Source: Cloeon dipterum (taxonomy: Eukaryota; Arthropoda; Insecta; Ephemeroptera; Baetidae). From it: a stretch of DNA of 64,000 nt. Both the position numbers and the translations under genes were made by a program. The stretch lies in the NCBI RefSeq assembly GCF_949628265.1, contig NC_088787.1:9476501-9540500 (forward strand), in the 5' to 3' direction. The notes under the pieces are model-generated. The model had not been told where the DNA came from. It was given only the letters and a program-made list of their open reading frames with translations, and did no database searches. Below, in pieces: positions 842-13,500 of the stretch; within the stretch, counting starts at the first letter, position 1, and every line of letters begins with the position of its first letter.

Positions 842-1033
842 TCAAACTTTTAAACAGGAAACCAGGTAAATGATGTCCATATGACAAAACGTGTGCTCAA
901 AAACACCACAATATGATTCATTTTTTAGTTCGCTCTGTCCAGCCACATAGTAAGGCGTGAAAACAACATGAATATCGCATATTGGAGCTTGATTTTCACG
1001 ATTCTCATCAGAATTGGCGTAGGTAAAAATCAT
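842..1033 (-). pseudogene. Reverse-strand fragment resembling the lectin gene's terminal CTLD exon
   Basis: On the minus strand 63 codons stay open and end in YLVSCLKV plus a stop. The segment (FTYANSD... ICDIHVVF... ESYCGVFE... VSCLKV) can be aligned with the last exon of the lectin/OBP gene (YADTF... WCHSRVVL... RYACFG... FVCVKP). No partner exons or clear splice acceptor were seen on the minus strand at higher coordinates, and the frame simply runs on upstream to a stop at about 1076. A minus-strand AATAAA lies downstream near 770. It is most likely a stray duplicated exon or pseudogene, but a one-exon gene is not excluded. Confidence 0.35.
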
Positions 1034-1093
1034 GCAAGTCTTTATTATATACTTTACTTGGTGATGAAAACTAAGTTACACTGTTCTTAACAG

Positions 1094-1506
1094 AATGGCA
1101 AAATTAAGGCGATCAGAATTAAAATTCGCGGAGGAAATTCAGGTAATTAAAAATTATGCTTATTACTAAACTTGATTATAAATTTGAATGTCAAGCAGAT
1201 CCTATCAAAATCAAACTTCCGAAGAAAATTCAGAGGTTAAATATCGTCAAGTGTTGCGGCTTTAAAAGATGCGTAGCGGCCAACGCGACTGCGAACAGAA
1301 GAACGACGTCACCAAAAGGAAAGGTATAGAATGTCCAAGATTAAATTTTATCAGAATACGTTTTAATAATAATCGATAGGAATATAAAAACACGCCAACA
1401 ACGTTGATTGGCTACGTTTCCACCGCAGCAGGGGGCTCTGTCGAGATACAGGATACTCAGAAAAATAATGACGTACGAACAACAACGGAAGTTGTCATCG
1501 GACCAA
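1094..1506 (+). other. Basic N-terminal exons of the lectin/OBP gene
   Basis: Three exons (1094-1142, 1199-1323, 1380-1506) join in phase and give a Lys/Arg-rich segment beginning NGKIKAIRIKIRGG, with a CCGFKRC cysteine cluster and a TANRRTTSPKGK stretch. I recognise no domain. The opening motif resembles SGKNKAAKIQVEVRG in the small secreted protein at 45.5 kb. A further 5' exon may lie at about 433-525 (acceptor ccaacag, donor agtaaaa, phase 0), but nothing in its translation confirms this. Confidence 0.55.
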
Positions 1507-4500
1507 GTAGGGATGAAAATTGCAAACTGAAATATAATTTTAAAAAAATAATATCATAGCACTAGAAAATCTAGACGGTAATCTACAAAACAGCACTTCT
1601 GGAGTACCTGGAGAGTCTGCAGAACCGGAAACCACGTCTGGAGGCACTTCAATAATAAATCAAAGCAATAATAAAGTCGATGTTGATTATTCAACACCAC
1701 CGAGCGGCACCTCCGCTAATTCCTTTAGTTCAACCTCAACCAACTCAGGCAGTGGCGTCATGACTAACACCCTCGTCACTTTCTTACCCTCGTCGACTGC
1801 TCCAACCCAAGTTTCAACAACCATATTATCCCTCTCGAAACAATCAACAGTCGCAGATAAGACACAAACGACGACAACAATTAATTCTGGCATTCCCTCT
1901 CTAATTGTTGATTCAACCACCCAATCAAAATCTACAACAAGCACAACTACCACAACAACAACTAGTACAACGGTAAATATTCTTCGTTTTAGATAAATGT
2001 ATATAGCTATAATACATACATATAATTTTCTAGCCTGCTCCGTGCCATTTGACTTGCGATAATTTCAATAATTTCTTAACGGTAGTAAAGATTGACCTTA
2101 TTGAGTAAACTTTTAACTTTCTCTAACACTTTTCTTCAAGCAAACTCCAACGAAACAGCCGGATAAGAGTAAAGATCATATAAATATAATTAATATAATT
2201 TTATGTTAATTTTACTGAACTATCCAGCGCAAGGCTCAGTTCTTGGTTCTTCAAACTGCGACAGCAGAAAATATTTTGTTTCAACTGTTACCGTCAGTAT
2301 TTAATTAAAAGGGTAGCGAATTTAAGATGAGATGAACCAGTTAAATTTAAATAGGCGTCGAGAAACGAAGCAGCACTGAATTGCAAGGCGTGGAACATGA
2401 CACTTTTAGCTGTCACTTCAGTCGAGGAATTGAACTGTCTTGCCAGTTTCAAAGGTTTGAAATTATAAATAAATTTTAAATTAAAATTAATTAACAATCA
2501 TAGCTGGCACGTATTGGACGAGCGGCTCGAATGAAGATTTGAACTGCGACTCTGAAAAAAAGTACGCGTGGTGCTCGACGGGTTACAACGCTTCTTCGTC
2601 CCTCATCCTCTCTCCCGACTTTTGGCTCAACGGTACCGCGTCCTTTCTCGAGCGTTGTCTGGCGCTCGTCAACTCTGACAACCCCAAAACGCAGGGGTTG
2701 GTGCACAGAAAATGCGACGACGCTCTCAACTACATCTGCCAATACCCTGTTGAATGTCCTCGACCTCAGCTTTTGACGAAAAATGTTTCAATTTTAATTA
2801 ATCCTATCGCAAACTCTAAGTTACTATAATTTTCAGGATTCCCTTTTTGATCCTGCAGGAAACTTGATAAGTAATTGGAATGATAGTTTCAAAACACTTA
2901 ATTAGAATTCTATCTTAAAAAAGACAAGACTTCCTACGGAATTTGGATCACAATTGGCAACTATACCTATCTCCTTGGAAACAAGCCGGTAAAAATAACT
3001 GTTATAAACATTAAAAATGGATTTAGAAATAAATATTCCCGAACAGATGACGTGGCTCTCCAGCTTTAAACAGTGCAGCGCTTTAGGAATGGAAACTCTC
3101 AACATTGATAACGCGGCCGAGCAACTTGGGCTTACTAACATGACAAATGTTTACAAAGGTTTCTTTAAGTCTAAAATTAAAAAAAATGCATTTTAAATTT
3201 GATCTTCAGACAAATGGAAGGCCAATTTCAATTACTGGACGTCCGGCAAGATAAATAAGGGCTCTCCGGAGCGTCAGTGGTCATTTTGCGAGTCCACGGG
3301 ACCCACAATTTTCGCCCCTGGACTCAAGTGGGAAGCTGGCCAGCCCGACAACACCGGCGGGAGCGAAAGTTGTGTCCACTTTCGCTTTGTTCTTAACGAC
3401 ACAGGCACCACCATGAGTGACAGGAATTGTACTAACAAATACATTTTCGCCTGCAAGGTTTGATTTTGTTATAAATAATTTTCTTTACAAATCAAATCAT
3501 AAAAAACCACAGATGCAGATAGAAGCTCCAGCTCAGCCCTGCGTGGCTTCTTGTCCTAGTAAAATCTGTCAGAGAAATGTATTAAGAGTCTTAAAAATTT
3601 GATATTTTTATGATATTTTTTTACTTTCTCTTTGTAGCCGGATAATTTTATAAAGGATGCCAGAGGAAATTCCTATTTAATCGGTAGGGTTTTCATTTAT
3701 TTTCTTAACAGTAATAAAAATAAAAAGATTACAATTTAGATTACATGAATTACGGATCTTGGTACGACGGTTGTGGCAGAAACATTTTAGCTCACAACTC
3801 AACAATGGTAAAGATTTGTATTTTGATTTAGAGGCATTTAATAAATAAAATAAAAAAAACATCTAGTTAAGCTGGGCAGCTGCCAGGGATAAGTGCTGTG
3901 ACATTGGCTTGACCCTGGCATCGATGGAAACGGCTGGAAAACTCAGTTGCTTTTCCAAAATCACCACTAGTAAAGAAATTTTATTTAAATCCATTAAATA
4001 TGAAATTACATTTTTGACAGTGGTCGATTCCTGTTAAAAATATAGTGGTTTCTGCATGAGGTACCACAAGAACGCTGATTGTTCGCTGCCGATCTTTTGG
4101 CACTGTCAAAAATGCAGTTCCAGATCGTCTTTACCTTTATCAAAATTTAGAGTACGCCCCTTACTCGTTTGGTGACTTCTGGCTGTCGGGAACTGACCTA
4201 AATTGTCCATCCAACTTCCGGTGGTGCTCATTGGGCCGAGATTTCGTCGATTCTGAGCTGAAGTGGAAGACTGGACACCCAAAGGCAGATCTGGACTGCG
4301 TTTATCTCGAAGTTAGGAACAGATCCTTGCTGCTGGCCTCCGCGAACTGTGCCGAAAATAAAACTTTCCTTTGCGAAGTGCGGAAGAAAGCCACCGCCCA
4401 GAGAGCCATGCAGACCGAATGTGCAGAAATTTGGGACATCACTAGCGGTACAAACAAAAAAATATGAAAATATTTAAATCAATATTTTCCTTAGATCAAA

Positions 4501-5991
4501 TTGACTTGCTTATGAACGTCAGCGCTTTCCTTTCCGCAGATATCTCGTTCAATTTGAAAGTTTGCTTTAAACTGCCTGTTTTTTTTCTAAAATATATGTC
4601 TTTTCCATAATTTCAGTGCTTCTTGAAATGTGTTGGGATCGAAATAGGAATAGTAATTAATTAATTATCATAGTTAAATCAGAAAATACAATATTTCCAC
4701 TTCAGTTTGACATCGGAGCATTGAACAGCATTGCGACATTGCGCCAAATAGAGTTTGTGTCGCAAGAGGAGCCTGAAAAACTGGAGCACGGATTTGTTGC
4801 CTACGACACCTGCAGCGGAAGAAGTTAGATTTTTTAATAATAAATTCCCAGCAAAATATCTATAAACGAAAGAATAATTCAGAGTTTGACGACGAGTGCG
4901 TGACAGCCTACGAAACTTACAAATGCGGCCTGCAAGAAGCGCCTGATTTGGTCTCGAACATCATTTCGAACAATTTTGACAACAATTCGATAGTATCCAA
5001 ATTAATTAAGAGTTTTAATGAATATGCATACATTTGCGATTTGCAGCTGAGCAGCCCGACTCCATGTGTTCCGCTGCGCCGAACTTGTTGGCTCTCGGAT
5101 CGGTATCCCTGCATAATAAACGTATTTTTTTTTTACTCCTTGATAAATAATGAAAATTTATTGAAATCTGCAGCAAACAGCTATTGATAGGCTGAACTCT
5201 GATCCAAACAAACGAGGTATCTATTAATTTTCTTCTTCGATTTAACTAAATTCCTTTCTCCAAGATGACCAAGGCAAATGGGTAACTTTGTCAAACAATA
5301 GGACTTATTATTTCGGAAATCCTGATGGTCTTAGATTGGTCGTAAGGAGTTGAATATTTAAATTACGTATATTTGGACTGACTAATTGAAATCTTTAGAA
5401 CCCGGTGAATGTGTATAAACACTGTTGCGAGCTCGGACTGAAATTCTTTGAGCCTGAAACTGTTGAGGAAATTGAATTGTTCTTGCAATTTTCGTGTAAG
5501 TTCTGTCACTTTTTATAGGGTTTGCATTCTGCAAAAAGACTGCCCAGTTTTTTCTTTCCAGAAATAATAACAATTGCCTTTAGAAAAATAAACCAATTTT
5601 ATTAAAGTTTTATGAACCCGCCTGATCTGTCAAAGCCGCATTAATCATTTAGATTTTGAGGCCCTTTTGTTGTTTTGACAGATATTCTTTAATTTACTGT
5701 GGATTTTTGTACACAGATGCTGACACGTTCGTGGGCGAAACTGTGTCGGTGAACCAGACGCACGAGGCTTGGTGTCACAGCCGCGTTGTATTGCCCGACA
5801 GCTTATTCGCAAACGCCTCGCAAGAAATAGCGTCAAGGTACGCGTGCTTTGGGTCCATCGTCGGAATGAGTGCGAATTATAAAAGAATCAAAGCTTACAC
5901 ATATTTGCAAGAAAACTTCGTGGAATACTACTACAACAATCAGTCTTCCCCCATGACCTTTTTTGCTACATTCGTTTGTGTGAAACCTTAG
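1094..5991 (+). CDS. Secreted multidomain C-type lectin / odorant-binding-protein chimera (26-exon model, 5' end missing)
   Basis: I assembled this gene by hand from GT-AG exons whose phases all join without a stop: 1094-1142, 1199-1323, 1380-1506, 1560-1972, 2034-2081, 2141-2168, 2234-2292, 2355-2454, 2504-2784, 2837-2870, 2906-2988, 3047-3158, 3210-3457, 3513-3578, 3638-3683, 3740-3807, 3867-3969, 4151-4447, 4495-4559, 4617-4652, 4706-4823, 4883-5121, 5174-5216, 5265-5341, 5399-5495 and 5717-5991. The sum is 3,237 nt (1,078 codons plus TAG). Order of parts: basic Lys/Arg-rich region, Ser/Thr-rich mucin-like region, CTLD1-3, an OBP domain, CTLD4. By family knowledge CTLDs bind glycans or proteins and OBPs bind small hydrophobic ligands, so the product is probably an extracellular recognition protein; its ligand is unknown. 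No signal-peptide exon was identified upstream, so the start is open. An AATAAA follows the stop by about 60 bp. Individual small exons are less certain than the CTLD and OBP exons. Confidence 0.8.
1560..1972 (+). other. Mucin-like Ser/Thr-rich exon of the lectin/OBP gene
   Basis: This exon (137 codons) is dominated by Ser, Thr, Asn and Gly and ends in an almost pure Thr/Ser run encoded by ACA/ACT/ACC-type triplets. Such regions are typical of O-glycosylated extended linkers in secreted insect proteins. Reading on past the donor at 1973 meets a stop at 1994-1996, which could be an alternative short form. The short exons 2034-2081 (PAPCHLTC linker) and 2141-2168 connect it to CTLD1. Confidence 0.75.
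2234..2784 (+). other. C-type lectin-like domain 1
   Basis: Three exons (2234-2292, 2355-2454, 2504-2784) give the CTLD order: NCDSRKYF start strand, an ALNCKAWNMTLLAV helix, YWTSGSN, WCSTG, DFWLNG, ERCLALV, then KCDDALNYICQ. The eight or so cysteines and the WCSTG and YICQ signatures fit insect CTLDs. No EPN or QPD motif is present where calcium-site 2 would be, so classical sugar binding by this domain is doubtful. The domain exon runs on into a Cys-Pro linker, PVECPRP. Confidence 0.88.
2837..3457 (+). other. C-type lectin-like domain 2, QPD type
   Basis: Exons 2837-2870, 2906-2988, 3047-3158 and 3210-3457 encode TWLSSFKQCSALGMETL, NYWTSGKIN, KWEAGQPDN, ESCVHF and DRNCTNKYIFACK. This is the only domain of the four with an intact QPD tripeptide, plus a Glu after it and an Asp before the penultimate Cys. 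QPD is associated with galactose/GalNAc preference in classical CTLDs; that specificity is inference here. It is followed by the linker exon 3513-3578 (QPCVASCPSKIC). Confidence 0.88.
3638..4395 (+). other. C-type lectin-like domain 3
   Basis: Exons 3638-3683, 3740-3807, 3867-3969 and the first part of 4151-4447 encode SWAAARDKCCDIGLTLASM, YSFGDFWLSGTDLNC, FRWCSLG, KWKTGHPK, LDCVYLE and NCAENKTFLCE. The calcium-site tripeptide position reads HPK, so canonical calcium-dependent sugar binding is unlikely. The intron 3970-4150 is the longest between the domain's exons. I chose acceptor 4149-4150 because it keeps the phase-1 junction used in the sister domains. The last exon runs without an intron into the OBP domain. 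Confidence 0.85.
4411..5046 (+). other. Odorant-binding-protein (PBP/GOBP) domain inside the lectin gene
   Basis: Six cysteines occur in the classic OBP arrangement: C1 at 4420, C2 at 4617, C3 at 4629, C4 at 4811, C5 at 4897 and C6 at 4924. Residue spacing is C1-31-C2-3-C3-42-C4-8-C5-8-C6; the 3 and 8 spacings are diagnostic. Motifs seen are CFLKCVG, RQIEFVS, HGFVAYDTC, ECVTAYETYKC and a downstream PDLV. OBPs fold as six helices tied by three disulfides and carry hydrophobic ligands in extracellular fluid. Here the domain is embedded between CTLD3 and CTLD4 in one continuous reading frame across exons 4151-4447, 4495-4559, 4617-4652, 4706-4823 and 4883-5121. An in-frame 54-bp GT-AG segment (4993-5046) may be an optional intron. 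Confidence 0.88.
5174..5991 (+). other. C-type lectin-like domain 4, degenerate, C-terminal
   Basis: Exons 5174-5216, 5265-5341, 5399-5495 and 5717-5991 follow the same phases as the other CTLDs. Recognisable parts are WVTLSNNRTYYFGN, VYKHCCELGLKFF, AWCHSRVVLP, RYACFG and the terminal FVCVKP before TAG. The WCSTG and EPN/QPD regions are lost or unrecognisable, so this is a diverged fold. The linker before it (5048-5121) is Cys/Pro-rich (TPCVPLRRTC). Confidence 0.75.
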
Positions 5992-6050
5992 GGCAGTGGA
6001 TTTTCGGACGCTATTTGCGTTTCGTGGTTTGTTTCAAATGGGAAGGATTT

Positions 6051-6056
6051 AATAAA
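6051..6056 (+). terminator. Polyadenylation signal AATAAA of the lectin/OBP gene
   Basis: A canonical AATAAA lies about 60 bp after the stop codon at 5991, in AT-rich sequence. It is the first such signal downstream of the gene. Confidence 0.6.
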
Positions 6057-6463
6057 ATATTTGATTTTGGCTTTTATTGGATTCTTATTTTAAAGCTTAT
6101 TGTGACCCTCTTGATTTATCATATCAAAATTTCGATGATAATACACAGTGACAAAAAACCTTTGACATCATAATTATCCTATATATAGTTCAATGTAATT
6201 TGTAATTAATAAGTTAGACTAAACTAAAATTATAAATATAGGACTGTGAGAATGATTTATTTTTATTTTCCATGTCTTTTTCCTTCCACAGTAAGCAAAT
6301 ATATTTTCCTTAACTGATTGTATAATAAGTTCCATTGAAGAGTCAAGAAAGTCAAAGGCAAAACTGAATAATAGAATTTCCTCCACTTTTCCAATCACGC
6401 GCGTACCGTCTGAGAGTGAATTATATTATCGCCTCATTTTTAACGATCCAGACGTCAAGCACT

Positions 6464-10523: not shown

Positions 10524-13500
10524 TCACGAGGCGGCGGAGGGGGCGCGGAAGAAGCCGAGGCGCCTCAGCGTGTCCGTGGTGGCGGCGACCAGCTTGTCGG
10601 TGTACTTCCAGATGGTGGTGTCGAGGGTCGAGTTCTGCCGGAACTCGGTGCACGACTTCTTCAGCGTCTTGACGCAGTCGGCGCGGTAGTGCTGCAGCTG
10701 CGCGTCGCTCGTGTTCACCGGGTACGAGGTGCAGCCCGAGCCGAGACACGCCAGCGGAAAGTGGTTGTGCAGCGTCAGCACGCGCTCCGGATTGTGGAAG
10801 CACTTGACGTACTGGCCCGGCTTCGTGAAGTTCTTGCTGCGGTACACGTGCTGCAGCATGTGCATGTAGCGCGGCATGTGCGCGAACCAGCCGTGCGCGT
10901 GGCTCAGCTCGTCGAGGAAGTAGACGTTGCGGAAGTTGTACGAGGCGCGCGTCTCGTTACGCAGCAACAGCGCCTTCGGAAGCACCTCCTCAGACATCAG
11001 CTGCTGCCAGTTCATCGACTTGATCGGCATGATCACCTGCAAAATGAAATATTCGTCAGATTTATGAGAAAATAAATTAATCTGGGATTTATCATGGAGA
11101 TTTTCCAATTTGTCTTTTCTCTGACGGTTTTTTTTAATTCAAAATAGTTTCCTTCATTGGTAATTCATTTCAGCGGGGGCCAGATTCGTGCGATGCGCAG
11201 ATATGGCGTCTGGTGGAGTTTGGCGCGAAAAACGGTCACGTGAAAATGCGCGAAAAGAAACAAATTTTCGTCAATATTGTGACGCATTACTTGTACTAAT
11301 TGTGTATTTTGGATTGTAAAAACAAACTCTTGACACTCGTACGGCAATCCAAAGAGAGCTTTTTGTTTCCCACGTTCAGACGCCATCTTGGATCTGCGCA
11401 GTGCGAACCAATTTTATTGCTCATCTGGACCCCGCTGATTTATTTTAAATTTGTTTTTAAATAAAATTGCTCTGCCTTTAAATTTTCTTAAATAGGATGT
11501 AATTGATCCACAGCCAGCTAGCAACGAGTTGGACTCTGACAGTAGACAATTGTACTGAAGAGTAATTTAACCAAGCTTAAAAAAGATTTTGAAAGACATT
11601 GTAAAACATTAAGAATGCTATAAATTTCGCAAAAGGTTTTATCTGCAAATAAAAATGCCTAAATTTTTGAAAACATTACATTGAGGCTGACTAAATTATA
11701 TTCACGATCAGAAACGTTTGTTTTTGCCATCAGGAAAATAACCAGTTAATGATGCTACAAAATTCATGTCTGTAAATTTGAGTTATTCGGGACCAAATTA
11801 CGAACTCTAATTGGAGAGCTTTTTTGACAAAATAGTCGTTATCTTAATTGGTCAATTTAGACGTTTTACAGGCCAAATTATTAATAATCCTTTACTTGAT
11901 GAGGCTTGAAAAAACAATATTTTTTATGATAATAATCATTTTTCACCATTTTTGTGGGATTTTTCTCTTTCTTCAAGAGCTATAATTCTCTCGAGGAAAA
12001 TTTTAAATATTTATTACAATGGGAATAAAGGTATAAAAATGTAAATTGGATCTGAATTTAAACGCAAACAATTTTTTCTTTTGGAAATGAAAAGAGAACA
12101 TCCAAAATATTTTTGAGCCTTTCTGTATATTTAAAACCGGGAAAATGTATCAAAATGAGCCTAAATTTTGCACGGATTTTTGGCAGATGGAGACACTTTT
12201 AGAGAGAGTTTTGGAAGTTGTAGTCTGTTTTTAGCATGGTTCTAAAAGCTTACAATTACATGTTTCGTGCTCAATTTAATAGTCAGAAAAAATTCTACCG
12301 TCTGAAATTCTTAGCACTATAATTAAAAATAAAAATACCTCGCAACAAGGAAAAGAAAAGTTTTGTTTTTTCTTTTACAACACAAAATAAAAATTTAAAA
12401 AAAGCTTTGGAACAATTTTTAAATTTAGCATAACAAATCTTTTAACGGCCAACTAAGACTTTCTTTAATTAAGTGGTTTTGAATGGATTGACGTCAACCG
12501 TCTGGAACAACACTTTTATTTTTGAAACAGAAAACTCTAACTTCAACGCTGGTTTTATTTTTAGCTCGGATTTAATACTTTTCACGTACCTCGTCAACGT
12601 CAAGCAGTGCGATGTGCTCGTACATGTAAAGATTCTTGTAGAGGCAGTCGTTATAGGGGATGAGCTCGTTTTGCCGCTTGTGATTCACCTTCTTGGTGAG
12701 ATACATGTGCTGGAAGCCGGCGATGTTGGGCAGCGTGCCCGGCAGGGTGAGGGGCGTGACCTCGACCTTGCCCACCTGCTGGTAGTAGTCCAGCACCTTG
12801 CTGATGTTCGGATGCACCTGAAAAAGGGGGCCCAGCGTCAGTGGCGGATCTCACAACTTGAAAAATGTAATTTATCCTTTCCGGCGTGTCATCTAAAAAC
12901 GTAATAATTGTGATTATATGCAAAAGGTCAAGAGAAAGATTGCTAATTGGAAATATTACCTAAATAGTTAGATGATCCAAGCTAGATTTTTTATAATTAT
13001 GAATAAAATTCAGCCCAAAAATTCATGTAAAGTTTTGCCACATTTCAAATGTTACAAAATCAAAAGATTTAAAGTTGAAATATAAAGAAAAACTTATTTT
13101 ATATTGAATTTTATTGAAGATTTTAAAACTAAACTATTAGTTCATTGCCAGTTTCTGTAAAAATTAATTAGCTTTAGGGGAAAGTAAAAAATTTAATTAA
13201 GAGGAAACCTCATTTGAAAATATGGCAGTGCTTGAAAATTGCAACAAATTACCGAACGAGTTCCGTTCTCCCACATCATTCAAAAATTTGCCATCGCAAC
13301 CGCATGTGGGGCTGTGTTAGTTATTTTATTAAACACCACATGAGCCTTGAATATGATAAGGAAGTTTAGAAACTCACCTGCAGTTTGTACATGAAGATCT
13401 TGTCGGCTCCAAGCAAGTGGAGAAGCTCGATCCACTCGACCATGCGGACCGATAGGTCCTCGTGCAGGAAATCGAGGCCCTTGACGCAGACCGCAAAGCC

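Follow-up and report, generated by a model that had tools for sequence, protein, structure and literature searches.

The gene LOC135937474 of Cloeon dipterum, a member of a mayfly genus of the family Baetidae, encodes a single protein in which an odorant-binding protein (OBP) domain is set between C-type lectin-like domains (CTLDs). It lies in a stretch of 64,000 nucleotides of contig NC_088787.1 (assembly GCF_949628265.1, positions 9,476,501 to 9,540,500), referred to here as the window, and was identified as the best protein match of the gene in RefSeq. OBPs are commonly taken to be stand-alone odour carriers, and the number of OBP genes is used to gauge chemosensory capacity. A preliminary description of the window had proposed the presence of an OBP domain between CTLDs in one protein, and this is what we find; the scale goes beyond that proposal, with at least 125 fused loci in the Cloeon genome and an identical domain order in another genus of mayflies.

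Both domains are recognized in the joined protein. The Pfam scan was run on an earlier model of 1,066 amino acids (aa), in which an intron at 4993-5046 had been read through (read-through pieces were also used for the genome search with exon 17 plus OBP and for the first protein search). In this model Lectin_C scored 45.3 bits over three stretches (cut-off 22.6) and PBP_GOBP 37.4 bits with an E value of 3.1e-9 (cut-off 22), so that the profile check suggested in the preliminary description gave an OBP match above the curated cut-off. The OBP piece alone reached 40.4 bits (E 3.6e-10), and the 611-aa RefSeq protein P0001, with its own splicing, 38.5 bits for PBP_GOBP and 43.9 bits for Lectin_C. 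PBP_GOBP was also above its cut-off in 9/9 and 10/10 relatives in the two sets scanned, and P0118 was below it at 18.5 bits. The OBP domain shows a cysteine spacing of 30-3-42-8-8, including the C2-X3-C3 and C5-X8-C6 intervals; the first gap had previously been given as 31, the remaining ones being the same. An OBP-typical six-cysteine spacing is kept in 93 of the 130 relatives retrieved, which are database entries, often fragments, from two annotations and not gene counts. A chance match to the OBP profile is ruled out by the scores above the cut-off together with this conserved spacing. Among solved relatives, 18 sequences matched the OBP piece at E up to 1, of which 16 are named odorant-binding and the remaining two are named by Anopheles gene codes only; the best was 4pt1 (E 5.7e-6), and LUSH was found as a sequence match at about 3.5e-4. 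The best solved relative of CTLD2 was the lectin codakine (2vuv, E 2.2e-5). The protein does not represent a small stand-alone secreted OBP: the domain lies inside a protein of 1,043 aa, which is therefore not an OBP in the usual sense, though an OBP domain is present.

That the two domains belong to one gene, as the preliminary description had assumed, is evident from exon 17 (4151-4447, forward strand). This continuous open exon contains the second half of CTLD3 with its last cysteine at 4372-4374, a linker of 15 residues and the first OBP cysteine at 4420-4422; a transcript boundary between them is therefore very unlikely. In favour of two adjacent genes or an annotation artefact, the RefSeq model begins inside CTLD2. 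Against it stand the shared exon, the same order in 91 of 96 genomic copies among the matches listed, and the same order in 44 of 46 proteins retrieved from Neocloeon, a separate genome with a separate annotation. Taken together, the junction exon, the genomic pairing and Neocloeon rule this explanation out, and we consider its probability negligible. In addition, the linker from the last CTLD cysteine to the first OBP cysteine is 14-20 residues long in all 93 proteins measured (18 residues in 52, 15 in 31, 16 in eight, 14 in one and 20 in one), a constancy that, at the level of sequence, points to a single fusion event.

In order to estimate the family size, the C. dipterum genome (190.1 Mb in 10 contigs, the window being C2:9476501-9540500) was searched with exon 17 plus OBP, which gave 234 matches from the 150 of 565 candidates that were scored. 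Among the matches listed, 96 CTLD3 exons were taken which matched from the exon start with at least 55% identity, leaving out five rows of 36-46% identity and one fragment beginning at residue 31; the OBP exon rows amounted to 189 distinct positions. An OBP exon was located 72-1,218 bases downstream on the same strand of 91 of these 96 CTLD3 exons, and none of the 189 OBP positions lay away from a CTLD3 exon. In most of the 96 paralogues the match to exon 17 extended over query residues 1 to about 100, i.e. through the first OBP cysteine. The 96 exons are clustered, with 44 on contig C1, 39 on C4, eight on C5 and five on C2. Two positions on C4 (29309324-29309623 and 29315735-29316034), 6.4 kb apart, have identical match scores and represent a very recent tandem duplication.

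A composite query was used to look for a second, shorter subfamily (162 matches). From the matches listed, 30 OBP loci were analysed by script together with a hit of PF01395, L001, and in 29 of these 31 the 1.5 kb upstream contained, on the same strand, a C-terminal CTLD half; L001 lacked an upstream CTLD, and L047 had a downstream CTLD only. Judging by position, the CTLD found upstream of L060 belongs to the adjacent gene as its final CTLD (compare L034), and this locus was counted as ambiguous, leaving 28. Six weaker loci fetched later all had their own upstream CTLD when inspected by eye. The 37 further OBP loci thus comprise 34 with their own upstream CTLD, one ambiguous, one with a downstream CTLD only and one that looks stand-alone. 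Taking both subfamilies together, the genome contains at least 125 fused loci (91 + 28 + 6), which is a lower bound and rules out a one-off fusion in the window.

The stand-alone-looking locus, L001 (C3:3625498-3625662, reverse strand; also L068), is an apparent Classic OBP exon without a lectin partner in the 3.2 kb seen around it. Two weak matches (C1:17026769 and C1:33245994; 38-42% identity, E about 0.33) may be stand-alone as well. The idea that this OBP type exists only in fused form held only for the long family among the matches listed; L001 and the two weak candidates on C1 lie elsewhere. L001 was also the sole place above the cut-off in a six-frame search of the genome with PF01395; the fused OBPs were missed because introns cut them, and this search alone would have suggested that the family is absent. 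At C1:17067836-17069397 (L034 and L060), the final CTLD of a chimera is succeeded by an extra OBP exon and then by one more CTLD, an arrangement that reflects either partial tandem duplication or a single gene containing two OBP parts.

Outside the genome search, relatives were collected by three protein searches. The first gave 35 matches, all from C. dipterum; a profile search gave 74, all from C. dipterum or Neocloeon triangulifer; and a search with more distant members, in which the 7,990 candidates sharing most words were scored, gave 60 and added a single protein of Ephemera danica as well as three CTLD proteins from a fish and a snail. We define a chimera as a CTLD, a linker of 14-20 residues, an OBP and usually a further CTLD in one frame, a description that fits the window protein. 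A CTLD followed by an OBP was present in 116 of the 130 proteins (Cloeon, 72 of 80; Neocloeon, 44 of 46), so that the order proposed for the window gene does recur in a related species; in 85 of these 116, the OBP is itself followed by a CTLD. Cloeon and Neocloeon both have a subfamily with three CTLDs ahead of the OBP and another with two. A tree of 93 sequences places 34 Cloeon members in a single-species group (weak support, 0.44) that adjoins Neocloeon P0046 (0.99), with 39 Neocloeon and 15 Cloeon sequences on the other side; the two genera have enlarged different branches.

Two proteins, P0116 from Neocloeon and P0117 from Cloeon, which their source labels 'macrophage mannose receptor 1-like' (a name we adopt as a label only), share the signal-type start, the CC motif, the stalk and the CTLD modules with the chimeras. 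They differ in having five CTLDs and no OBP, none being found in them at E up to 10. Judged from its sequence, this architecture is the likely pre-fusion scaffold. P0122, the sole protein retrieved from E. danica, consists of CTLDs of the five- to six-CTLD type, and no OBP was found in it at E up to 10.

For the analysis of selection, the window gene and its 28 best matches were used, and none of these 29 copies contained an internal stop. The median dN/dS (ratio of nonsynonymous to synonymous substitution rates), calculated over pairs with dS between 0.05 and 1.2, was 0.16 for the CTLD3 exon and 0.23 and 0.16 for two OBP exons, with synonymous saturation in 49 to 156 of the 406 pairs per exon; a value above 1 was obtained in one of 146 pairs for one OBP exon. 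The tested exons are thus under purifying selection, and for the best-matching copies tested, a family of pseudogenes is ruled out by the lack of stops and by dN/dS well below 1. In alignment A1 (34 rows, of which 24 to 34 were usable depending on the part), the median pairwise identity was 64% for CTLD2, 61% for CTLD3, 61% for the OBP and 33% for CTLD4, which is the fastest-changing part.

The final model of the window gene runs from 968 to 5991 in 26 exons and encodes 1,043 aa, in the order signal-type N-terminus, CCGxxxC, Ser/Thr-rich stalk, CTLD1 to CTLD3, six-cysteine OBP and degenerate CTLD4. The span of 3638..5991 given in the preliminary description sets in at CTLD3; the gene itself begins at 968. 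The choice of exons relied on GT-AG sites, an open frame and alignment with paralogues; all 25 introns are GT-AG and 47-221 bases long, and the frame is open throughout. P0001 is contained letter for letter in the model. The RefSeq gene begins within CTLD2, without the N-terminus, the stalk and CTLD1, its missing first exons being those at 968-3046, and the models of P0009, P0013 and P0016 begin at the same point of CTLD2. For exons 1-10 we rely on our model, which agrees here with P0003, P0011 and other annotated paralogues.

All parts of the gene lie on the forward strand. Exon 1 (968..1022) is an open frame with the start codon, the hydrophobic signal-type N-terminus and a GT donor at 1023; the putative signal peptide was called by eye and from hydropathy, the highest 19-residue value of the protein (1.61) being at residue 1, and the exon aligns by eye with annotated paralogues such as P0003. 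Exon 2 (1196..1323) encodes a basic stretch with IVKCCGFKRC, an instance of the (I/V)xCCGxxxC-type motif near the N-terminus of paralogues and Neocloeon members. Exons 3-5 (1380..2168) translate into the mucin-like stalk, as had been proposed, with 34% Ser plus Thr over residues 60-200. CTLD1 (exons 6-8, 2228..2784) is recognized by Lectin_C in the joined protein, has intron phases 0 then 1 and contains no EPN or QPD motif in its sequence. CTLD2 (exons 10-12, 2924..3457), with QPDN and SDRNC resembling a Ca/sugar site, is the best Lectin_C stretch (438-559 of the 1,066-aa model). CTLD3 (exons 15-17, first part, 3740..4374, up to its last cysteine) corresponds to Lectin_C at 181-290 of P0001. 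The OBP domain, from first to sixth cysteine (exons 17-21, 4420..4926, residues 737-833), is assigned by PBP_GOBP, its six cysteines and its solved relatives. It is followed by a Cys-containing linker (end of exon 21 and exons 22-23, 4927..5216), in which the RefSeq splicing, including intron 4993-5046, is reproduced. Exons 24-26 (5265..5991) encode CTLD4 and the stop codon. The claim of a fourth CTLD holds insofar as a CTLD profile built from the family finds it at 487-575 of P0001 and its introns have the same phases as those of CTLD1-3, 0 then 1, although the domain is degenerate and had no Pfam match in the scan of the joined model. A possible polyadenylation signal, AATAAA at 6051..6056, lies 60 bases 3' of the stop, a weak assignment given 13 AATAAA in 901-6200. 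The protein has 22 N-glycosylation sequons, and past residue 40 no transmembrane-like stretch was found in 12 of 13 proteins, P0046 having one borderline window.

The canonical Ca/sugar site of CTLDs consists of EPN or QPD plus WND. Across the family, and counted by CTLD position relative to the OBP, EPN or QPD occurs in 1/38 at position -3, 66/105 at -2, 46/115 at -1 and 3/83 at +1, i.e. commonly in the two CTLDs before the OBP and hardly at all in the outer ones. QPD in CTLD2 is nearly invariant across A1. CTLD2 of the window gene has QPDN but, where WND would stand, the SD of SDRNC, and it may bind sugar.

A fusion of CTLD and OBP, of which the preliminary description knew no example, was not described in the full-text literature searched either (most subscription papers and preprints lay outside it). 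The architecture is visible in databases, where single entries have already been given both Pfam domains by automatic annotation. Classic insect OBPs (PBP_GOBP, PF01395) resemble the OBP of the Cloeon chimera in profile match, six-cysteine spacing and solved relatives but, unlike it, they are not joined to a lectin. For C. dipterum itself, Almudi and others (2020, PMC7250882) reported 191 OBP genes, more than in any repertoire known at the time; this set very probably includes many of the chimera loci, and the word 'lectin' does not occur in the main text of that paper. The heptageniid mayfly Parafronurus youi also has OBPs of the PBP_GOBP family, but only 10 genes, encoding 135-252 aa, are given (PMC13205551), and 'lectin' is again absent from the main text. 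Four OBPs are stated for a damselfly (PMC5381652). Going by these accounts, insects that branch near the base of the winged lineage seem usually to have a small OBP set of the ordinary kind, and the excess in Cloeon seems to fit the chimera family. The number of loci (at least 125) suggests that much, and perhaps most, of the set of 191 Cloeon OBPs belongs to this family.

What these proteins do, where they are secreted and what they bind, we infer as follows. They may form a family of secreted, mucin-stalked CTLD(2-3)-OBP-CTLD proteins acting in two-handed capture or in pattern recognition, a reading whose chance we put a little below even. The preliminary description had suggested a new kind of secreted receptor or an immune or mucosal factor; we treat such a role, glycan binding by the CTLDs and a hydrophobic ligand in the OBP pocket as proposals only. 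A single fusion would have put the OBP inside an existing multi-CTLD secreted scaffold, and the hybrid gene would then have been duplicated many times, separately in Cloeon and Neocloeon. The aquatic nymph might secrete the chimera onto or into its glycan-rich surface layers, those of gill, cuticle, gut or mouth mucus, and the stalk would retain it there. The QPD-bearing CTLD adjoining the OBP could recognize glycans on microbes, on algae or in self mucus, the last CTLD, which changes fast, could vary the target, and the OBP could capture a small hydrophobic molecule that the target releases or carries. Several observations weigh against this proposal. CTLD2 has SDRNC or TDRNC at the place of WND, which makes Ca-dependent sugar binding unsure; CTLD1, CTLD3 and CTLD4 of the window gene have neither EPN nor QPD; Lectin_C was above its cut-off in only 5 of 10 more distant members; and in situ hybridization as described in PMC7250882 places some Cloeon OBPs in 'neurosensory' cell clusters of the gill, which suits a chemosensory role too.

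Such a role is the main alternative: the chimeras could be perireceptor proteins of nymph gills and heads, anchored in mucus or lymph by CTLDs and stalk, with the OBP delivering waterborne odorants to receptors. It would agree with the purifying selection on the OBP exons and with the expression of 82 of 167 OBP genes in gills, three of them in HRP-positive cell clusters (PMC7250882), but the gill OBPs of that report could be chimeras or stand-alone proteins. Moreover, OBP carriers normally diffuse as proteins of 120-170 aa, according to PMC13205551, whereas the domain is here locked in a stalked protein of about 1,000 aa whose lectin parts are conserved to an equal degree; we regard this role as unlikely, if still deserving attention. 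It is improbable that the OBP is simply a disulfide-braced helical spacer between CTLDs which binds nothing, the protein then being just a lectin. Folds can be reused as spacers in domain fusions. The retention of six cysteines with OBP-typical spacing in 93 of 130 proteins (many of the others being fragments or lacking an OBP), like an OBP identity as high as that of the CTLDs, speaks against this reading while being compatible with a spacer. Slightly less probable still is a structural or adhesive secretion, such as silk-like cement, egg coat, cuticle or peritrophic layer, in which the OBP would hold lipids; the Ser/Thr-rich stalk, the numerous sequons and the many tandem copies would suit it, but a fast-changing last CTLD suits recognition better.

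Returning to two-handed capture, a wider version of it appears possible to us, at odds clearly short of even. A single domain insertion in baetids would have founded a new class of secreted two-ligand recognition proteins, for a glycan and a hydrophobic molecule, with more than 125 loci per genome in the manner of an innate recognition repertoire; this class would make up most of the 191 OBPs of Cloeon, and the gill chemosensory signal would at least in part be a signal of chimeras. Independently of its role, the OBP domain has become a constant component of a lectin protein at more than 100 loci of one insect, and part of the record-sized OBP repertoire of Cloeon may not be ordinary smell carriers. 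If the published set includes chimera loci, the claims of a largest repertoire and of a gill chemosensory organ need to be re-read. An OBP tied to a putative glycan binder would then also be a natural test case for OBP roles outside smell. The family is moreover a dated and clearly bounded case of a domain insertion with explosive duplication in its wake.

Some further features were noted. The database model of P0008 has a sulfatase domain beside the OBP and probably represents two genes merged by annotation. P0126 (C2) is a member that has diverged: its OBP match is limited to profile positions 11-83, and its C-terminal part is long and unusual. Finally, an open frame on the reverse strand of the window (10524-11138) looks like a glycosyltransferase, presumably of family 92 / DUF23.
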